NCBI GenBank assembly: GCA_947587085.1
Contig: CANPXX010000007.1
Span: 1-43,932, forward strand
From: an uncultured Clostridia bacterium
Lineage (GTDB): Bacteria > Bacillota > Clostridia > Christensenellales > Borkfalkiaceae
Direction of reading: 5' to 3'
DNA: 43,932 nt
Positions 1,600 through 43,932 of this stretch are shown here, piece by piece; the stretch's first letter is position 1, and each line of letters opens with the position of its first letter. The notes under the pieces were generated by a model. The model ran no database searches and had not been told where the DNA came from. It worked only from the letters and a program-made list of their open reading frames with translations. Made by a program: the position numbers and the translations under genes.

Positions 1600-1634
1600 C
1601 AAAACAAAAGCGCACGGAAATGCTCTCCGTGCGC
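1600..1634 (-). terminator. Terminator-like hairpin in the corA leader
   Basis: On the minus strand GCGCACGGA (1626-1634) pairs perfectly with TCCGTGCGC (1610-1618) across a 7-base loop and is followed by TTTTGTTTTG. It lies after the small leader ORF and before the corA ribosome site, which is the position expected of a transcription attenuator. An upstream TGCGC in the leader could pair with part of the stem as an antiterminator. Confidence 0.7.
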
Positions 1635-1653
1635 CGGGAATCGCTCCGCTTCG

Positions 1654-1737
1654 CTATGCGCAGGCGCGCCCCAACCGAGATCCGCACGAGAGATCTTCCG
1701 TTATTTCATTACTTCGGTTGTTTGGCGCAGCGTCCAT
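1654..1737 (-). CDS. 27-residue corA leader peptide ORF
   Basis: Between the corA promoter and the terminator-like hairpin, ATG at 1737 is preceded by GAGGGAGAAG at Shine-Dalgarno distance. It opens 27 codons beginning MDAAPNN, with an acidic stretch (NEITED), and ends in TAG 20 bases before the hairpin. It is visible only as the tail of a longer ORF in the track. Leader peptides controlling Mg2+ transport genes are known in enterobacteria (mgtL for mgtA, corL for corA), where acidic or proline codons make translation sensitive to Mg2+. No homology to those peptides is claimed; the similarity is in layout. Confidence 0.5.
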   Translation of the reverse strand: MDAAPNNRSNEITEDLSCGSRLGRACA

Positions 1738-1765
1738 TTTCTTCTCCCTCTGAAAAAGTACCTCT

Positions 1766-1794
1766 ATTATACCCGCTTCCCCGCGGTTTGGCAA
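1766..1794 (-). promoter_or_regulatory. corA promoter
   Basis: TTGCCA (1789-1794) and a perfect TATAAT (1766-1771) with a 17-bp spacer on the minus strand, in the gap after the M1 peptidase gene. The start of transcription is near 1759. Confidence 0.8.
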
Positions 1795-43780: not shown

Positions 43781-43857
<77 letters not shown>

Positions 43858-43858
43858 T

Positions 43859-43932
43859 GGCGATGTAGCTTAGTTGGTTAGAGCGATCGGTTCATACCCG
43901 ATAGGTCAGCGGTTCGACTCCACTCATCGCTA
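43859..43932 (+). tRNA. Elongator tRNA-Met (CAU), cut at the window edge
   Basis: Starts one base after the previous tRNA. The acceptor GGCGATG/CATCGCT has the G-U first pair usual for this tRNA, and the anticodon loop is TTCATAC. The sequence resembles elongator tRNA-Met rather than tRNA-Ile(CAU). The window ends at the discriminator A, so the CCA end is not visible. Confidence 0.92.

Follow-up and report, generated by a model that had tools for sequence, protein, structure and literature searches.

The gene for the CorA transporter in the window, that is, the whole 43,932 bp stretch of contig CANPXX010000007.1 from a gut bacterium analyzed here, is preceded by a short leader open reading frame (ORF), and translation of this ORF probably controls production of the Mg2+ transporter. 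It is likely that a ribosome-mediated transcription attenuator couples corA to the ease of translating the first leader codons, most likely as an intracellular Mg2+ sensor similar to MgtL. Comparison with related loci supports the ORF, its reading frame, its conserved N-terminus, and the fixed position and covariation of three RNA segments (2, 3, and 4). The gene context, with leaders before two unrelated families of Mg2+ transporters and tandems with the M-box, suggests Mg2+ as the signal, and pausing or drop-off of the ribosome at the acidic/proline start is proposed by analogy to MgtL. An earlier note on this DNA had suggested that a Firmicute here senses Mg2+ through leader translation. 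The retained frame, the covarying antiterminator and terminator, the leaders before both corA and mgtE, and the M-box tandems support that proposal, with the response to Mg2+ as the presumed outcome.

Parts of the corA leader in the window

The earlier note gave no strand for the leader, which our analysis places on the minus strand; the promoter, Shine-Dalgarno sequence, 27-codon ORF, stop codon, terminator, and corA that it described were all found in their places. The M1-family peptidase gene upstream ends at 1814, and the promoter, TTGCCA-17-TATAAT (1794–1766), sits between it and the leader. This promoter is of the sigma-70 type with a consensus match of 11/12, and genus leaders repeatedly show the promoter sequence CAGTTGCCAAA...TATAATA. 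The Shine-Dalgarno sequence AGGGAG (GGGAG) of the leader ORF was located at 1744–1749, and relatives carry GGAG-type sites before the leader ATG. The ORF of 27 codons, MDAAPNNRSNEITEDLSCGSRLGRACA, runs from the ATG at 1737 to the TAG at 1654 (1737–1654), and its first nine codons are conserved in the genus. Its peptide begins MDAAPNNRS, in agreement with the MDAAP start read earlier. The acidic stretch noted at the same time is present in the window (NEITED) but is not conserved, the conserved element being MD..P-NNR[C/S]. Codon 9 (1711–1713) is the serine codon AGT, where genus leaders have TGT, TGC, or AGT; the equivalent serine across the order is mostly AGT.

Segment 1, CAACCGA (1714–1720, codons 6–8), is predicted in the window folds to pair with TCGGTTG (1672–1678), a pairing that would lock up segment 2 when the ribosome is absent. 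Segment 2, CTCTCGTGCG (1683–1692, ORF nt 46–55), has the core TCGTGCG (1689–1683) and is the predicted 5′ half of an antiterminator. Segment 3, CGCACGG (1627–1633), serves as both the 3′ half of the antiterminator and the 5′ arm of the terminator. The intrinsic terminator, GGCGCACGGAGAGCATTTCCGTGCGC followed by TTTTGTTTT (1600–1635), has a 12-pair stem and a T-rich tail at 1635–1609, and it is contained in the fold of the full window transcript. The corA gene (1572–580, ATG at 1572) then encodes a protein of 330 aa with a GMN motif, matching the Pfam family CorA (PF01544) with an E value of 1e-54.

Directly downstream of corA lies a gene for a small zinc-ribbon protein (Pfam Zn_ribbon_8, 381–578), and the far end of the window (43781–43932) carries two tRNA genes. 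Because 23S rRNA past corA ends two other corA contigs (L002, 3573–3795; L084, 3023–3288), the start of the window contig (1–240) may adjoin an rRNA operon.

Conservation of the leader ORF within and beyond the genus

The corA relatives comprised 39 loci from named genomes together with genus and order sets, and further upstream stretches were fetched. A strict motif was defined as a short ORF preceded by a Shine-Dalgarno sequence, with an acidic residue at position 2 and a proline at residues 3–6. Such an ORF was present in 34/34 distinct corA upstream regions of the same genus, whereas dinucleotide shuffles gave 1.25 on average and the reverse strand gave 1. Loss of the frame in close relatives, which the earlier note had named as the outcome that would refute its proposal, was not seen: an MDxxP/MDDP ORF is in frame in all 34 genus leaders. 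The N-terminus is kept throughout the genus, and the terminator sequence is present in 35/35 genus leaders. The starts read MDAAPNNRC, MDAGPNNRC, MDDPNNRC, MDVSPYRS, and similar, whereas the C-terminal part of the peptide diverges even between members of the genus. Over all leaders, the length varies from approximately 10 to 45 residues.

In the 27 tabulated genus leaders of the MDA[AGV]P form, codons 3, 6, and 9 vary synonymously (GCT/GCA, AAC/AAT, and TGT/TGC, respectively), and residue changes also occur at codons 4 and 9. Across the order, Asp is encoded by GAC (52) or GAT (13), Pro by CCT, CCA, CCG, or CCC, and the start codon is ATG, GTG, or TTG. This synonymous variation in the N-terminal codons, together with the varied Asp and Pro codons and the alternating start codons, argues for selection at the peptide level, i.e., the leader N-terminus itself appears to be under selection.

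Beyond the genus, the strict motif was detected in 74/119 corA upstream regions of the order (shuffle mean 3.8, reverse strand 2) and in 27/60 of the phylum (shuffle mean 4.55, reverse strand 1), and no leader was detected with it in the other 45/119 and 33/60, respectively. When the ATG ORF with the strongest Shine-Dalgarno sequence was taken whatever its sequence, an acidic residue 2 (D or E) occurred in 32/32 leaders of the genus, 44/57 of the order, and 19/30 of the phylum. Typical starts in the order and phylum are MDADP, MEADP, MDTDP, MDGDP, MDDP, and MEDP, followed by serine (typically M[DE]xDPxS). In the corA leaders across the order (L084–L190), the first serine after the acidic/proline start is encoded by AGT in 64/73 cases, and AGT makes up 7.5% of the serine codons at the same loci. 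This bias points to a further constraint at the codon or RNA level.

A genome-wide pattern search for a Shine-Dalgarno sequence followed by M[DE]xDP gave 30 loci for inspection. Six of these (L288, L289, and L298–L301) were short-ORF corA leaders by place or sequence type, five (L286, L287, L305, L307, and L308) were other short ORFs of unassigned context, and the rest were longer frames. Given these mixed contexts, the search does not prove the motif to be specific to Mg2+ transporters.

Related starts also occur before mgtE, in 26/60 upstream regions by a looser pattern than the shuffle-controlled strict motif; most are MDAGS- or MDAGP-like, and 20 have no early proline. The mgtE leaders of the genus (L321, L324, L326–L331, L333, and L334) share a conserved MKGRSS/MKGRST start, encoded by AAA GGA CGA AGT A.C, which is basic and not acidic and counts against the MgtL-like reading; the CGA AGT pair is shared with corA leaders. 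The two transporter genes never occur together in the 24 genomes of the genus that were compared (G001–G024), of which ten have only corA, twelve only mgtE, and two neither (Fisher p 7e-5).

Six corA leaders and two mgtE leaders carry an M-box upstream of the ORF, in some cases directly before it. Rfam covariance models gave no match to the M-box (RF00380) in the window or its own genome, and the region of the leader ORF matches no Rfam family; with permissive thresholds, the leader yielded only a chance hit. M-box riboswitches were also observed in two congeneric genomes that carry corA (L313 and L314), where a P-type-ATPase-like frame follows.

Predicted antiterminator and terminator

The pairing analysis took in 35 genus leaders. 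Segment 2 (CYGTGYG or close to it) begins at approximately nt 40–53 of the ORF in all 35, across all three reading frames, and in each of them 6–7 of its 7 bases can pair with segment 3 (CGCAC[AG]G), the 5′ arm of the terminator. The segments covary: an A in segment 3 is accompanied by a U in segment 2 and, with one exception, by a U in segment 4. The corA tree implies approximately five changes of this A/G state, of which at least two are on well-supported branches. When the transcript is folded up to, but not including, segment 4, the antiterminator is part of the MFE fold in 33/35 leaders, and the terminator is in the MFE of the full-length fold in only 27/35; all these pairings are energy predictions, and the related sequences are not independent.

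The window and its sister L003 are the two leaders without it; in these, segment 2 is sequestered by the 5′ half of the ORF. Masking nt 1–39, to mimic a ribosome occupying the first nine codons, brought the antiterminator back in the folds of both, and when segment 2 was masked, the terminator remained. The whole-leader fold of the window alone is not unusual compared with shuffles (z −0.9), so the evidence is comparative. Across the order, the best partner of the terminator arm in 35 terminator-bearing leaders falls at a median of nt 45–60, with a mean z of −1.68 against shuffles and p ≤ 0.1 in 57%. Taken together, segments 2, 3, and 4 look like the anatomy of a ribosome-controlled attenuator, with an antiterminator and terminator as the alternative pair.

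RNA polymerase would start near 1759, and a ribosome would begin the leader ORF. With ample Mg2+, the ribosome would quickly pass the MD..P start, reach codons 15–20, and cover or melt segment 2, leaving segment 3 to pair with segment 4 to form the terminator, and corA would be off. At low Mg2+, the ribosome would pause or fall off within the first nine codons, and the free segment 2 would pair with segment 3 to form the antiterminator, allowing corA to be transcribed. For the window and L003, the folds predict that segment 2 would become free only with a parked ribosome, not through mere drop-off. A point against the scheme is the position of the stop codon, which in ten members of the genus, the window among them, is approximately 28–35 nt beyond segment 2; a ribosome resting there would leave the segment unmasked, so masking must occur in passing.

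Outside the order, predicted folding downstream of the ORF is heterogeneous. Some phylum-wide loci (L239, L241, L244, L253, and L260) have three segments in a row, the last of them at the Shine-Dalgarno sequence of corA. A common model of translational control by sequestering this site was considered for the phylum, but the sign of predicted accessibility was inconsistent (5 for versus 7 against), and the model is therefore not claimed.

Nature of the signal and relation to known leaders

Sensing through the N-terminus is suggested by three enterobacterial systems. In the mgtA leader, efficient translation of MgtL turns the gene off and early abortion turns it on (PMC11282234, PMC11552253), and EPDP is the destabilizing motif of MgtL (PMC11282234), which starts with MEPDP in E. 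coli. For CorL of E. coli and Salmonella, there is an inverse relation between leader translation and the expression of corA (PMC11552253). The ORF of MgtQ, which precedes mgtB in Salmonella, has eight residues, including Asp2 and Glu5, and is accompanied by alternative stem-loops (PMC8092293).

The leader described here resembles MgtL (Salmonella and E. coli mgtA) in being a short ORF before a Mg2+ transporter gene, and the Met-acidic-x-acidic-Pro start of MgtL is comparable with many of the leaders across the order (MDADP, MEADP). It differs in phylum and in transporter, and it has an intrinsic terminator and an antiterminator in place of Rho. Moreover, the genus form MDAAPNNRC has a single acidic residue before proline and is a weak match to the destabilizing motifs tested in E. 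coli, where a clear EttA effect needed at least DPEE (PMC11282234). With CorL it has in common a short ORF before corA; CorL uses Rho-dependent termination and another RNA arrangement, whereas all 35 genus leaders have an intrinsic terminator in that place. With both types the leader shares a short ORF between the promoter and a Mg2+ transporter gene, its translation being suggested by the Shine-Dalgarno sequence and codon variation, early acidic and/or proline codons (MDAAP; 34/34 in the genus), and two alternative RNA structures that leader translation is predicted, with covariation, to set. Like MgtQ, it combines a short acidic ORF with alternative structures before a Mg2+ transporter gene, but MgtQ lies within an operon and controls translation rather than termination. 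The predicted intrinsic terminator and ribosome-controlled antiterminator recall trpL, except that there is no codon run for an amino acid of the operon and the gene is corA. The M-box is likewise a Mg2+-responsive leader of Firmicute Mg2+ transporter genes and stands in tandem with this ORF at several loci, but it is an RNA aptamer without an ORF and is absent from the window and its genome. The mycobacterial pe20 operon has a Mg2+ leader with an M-box and a conserved uORF (PMC12810186); in that operon the uORF is under M-box control, and its peptide has been described as mycobacteria-specific.

The same attenuator might instead respond to the decoding of particular codons (AGT for Ser, CGA for Arg, or Cys), with tRNA charging, tRNA modification, or a generally slow site as the cue in place of destabilization by the nascent chain that depends on Mg2+. 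The AGT bias (64/73 versus the 7.5% background), for which nascent-chain destabilization does not account, fits such a signal, as do the invariant CGA in the 27 tabulated genus leaders and the CGA AGT retained in the genus mgtE leaders without an acidic start. We nevertheless consider it unlikely, in that no one regulatory codon forms a run, the targets are Mg2+ transporter genes and not amino-acid genes, and nearly all of the corA leaders found have an acidic residue 2.

That the leader is a structured RNA acting in cis, a new Mg2+ or metal riboswitch with an incidental ORF, appears very improbable: despite strong nucleotide conservation in the genus and the terminator with its alternative pairing, the Shine-Dalgarno sequence, start codon, and frame are kept while codons vary synonymously, the start switches between ATG, GTG, and TTG, no Rfam family matches the ORF region, and the fold of the window leader is no better than those of its shuffles. 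We give still less credence to a trans-acting small protein, such as one that binds CorA; its N-terminal sequence is conserved over a wide range, but the length of approximately 10 to 45 residues, the C-terminal part unconserved even in the genus, and the coupling of the ORF to an antiterminator all speak against this.

The best reading is a Mg2+ sensor of the MgtL kind, coupled to translation and widespread in Firmicutes, in which an intrinsic terminator here stands in for Rho. The open-access literature searched yielded no earlier description of such a leader in Firmicutes and only enterobacterial descriptions of Mg2+ sensing by leader-peptide translation. For the broader proposal, the balance is even: the ribosome, through an M-acidic-x-acidic-Pro start, may be a general Mg2+ sensor across phyla, with a class of corA/mgtE leaders throughout Firmicutes that is convergent with or as old as MgtL and sometimes lies behind an M-box. 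If this is true, finding a similar start ahead of the genes of two unrelated Mg2+ transporter families would mean that sensing Mg2+ with the ribosome is a general strategy, and the many natural variants could be used to learn which nascent-chain or codon features render translation sensitive to Mg2+.
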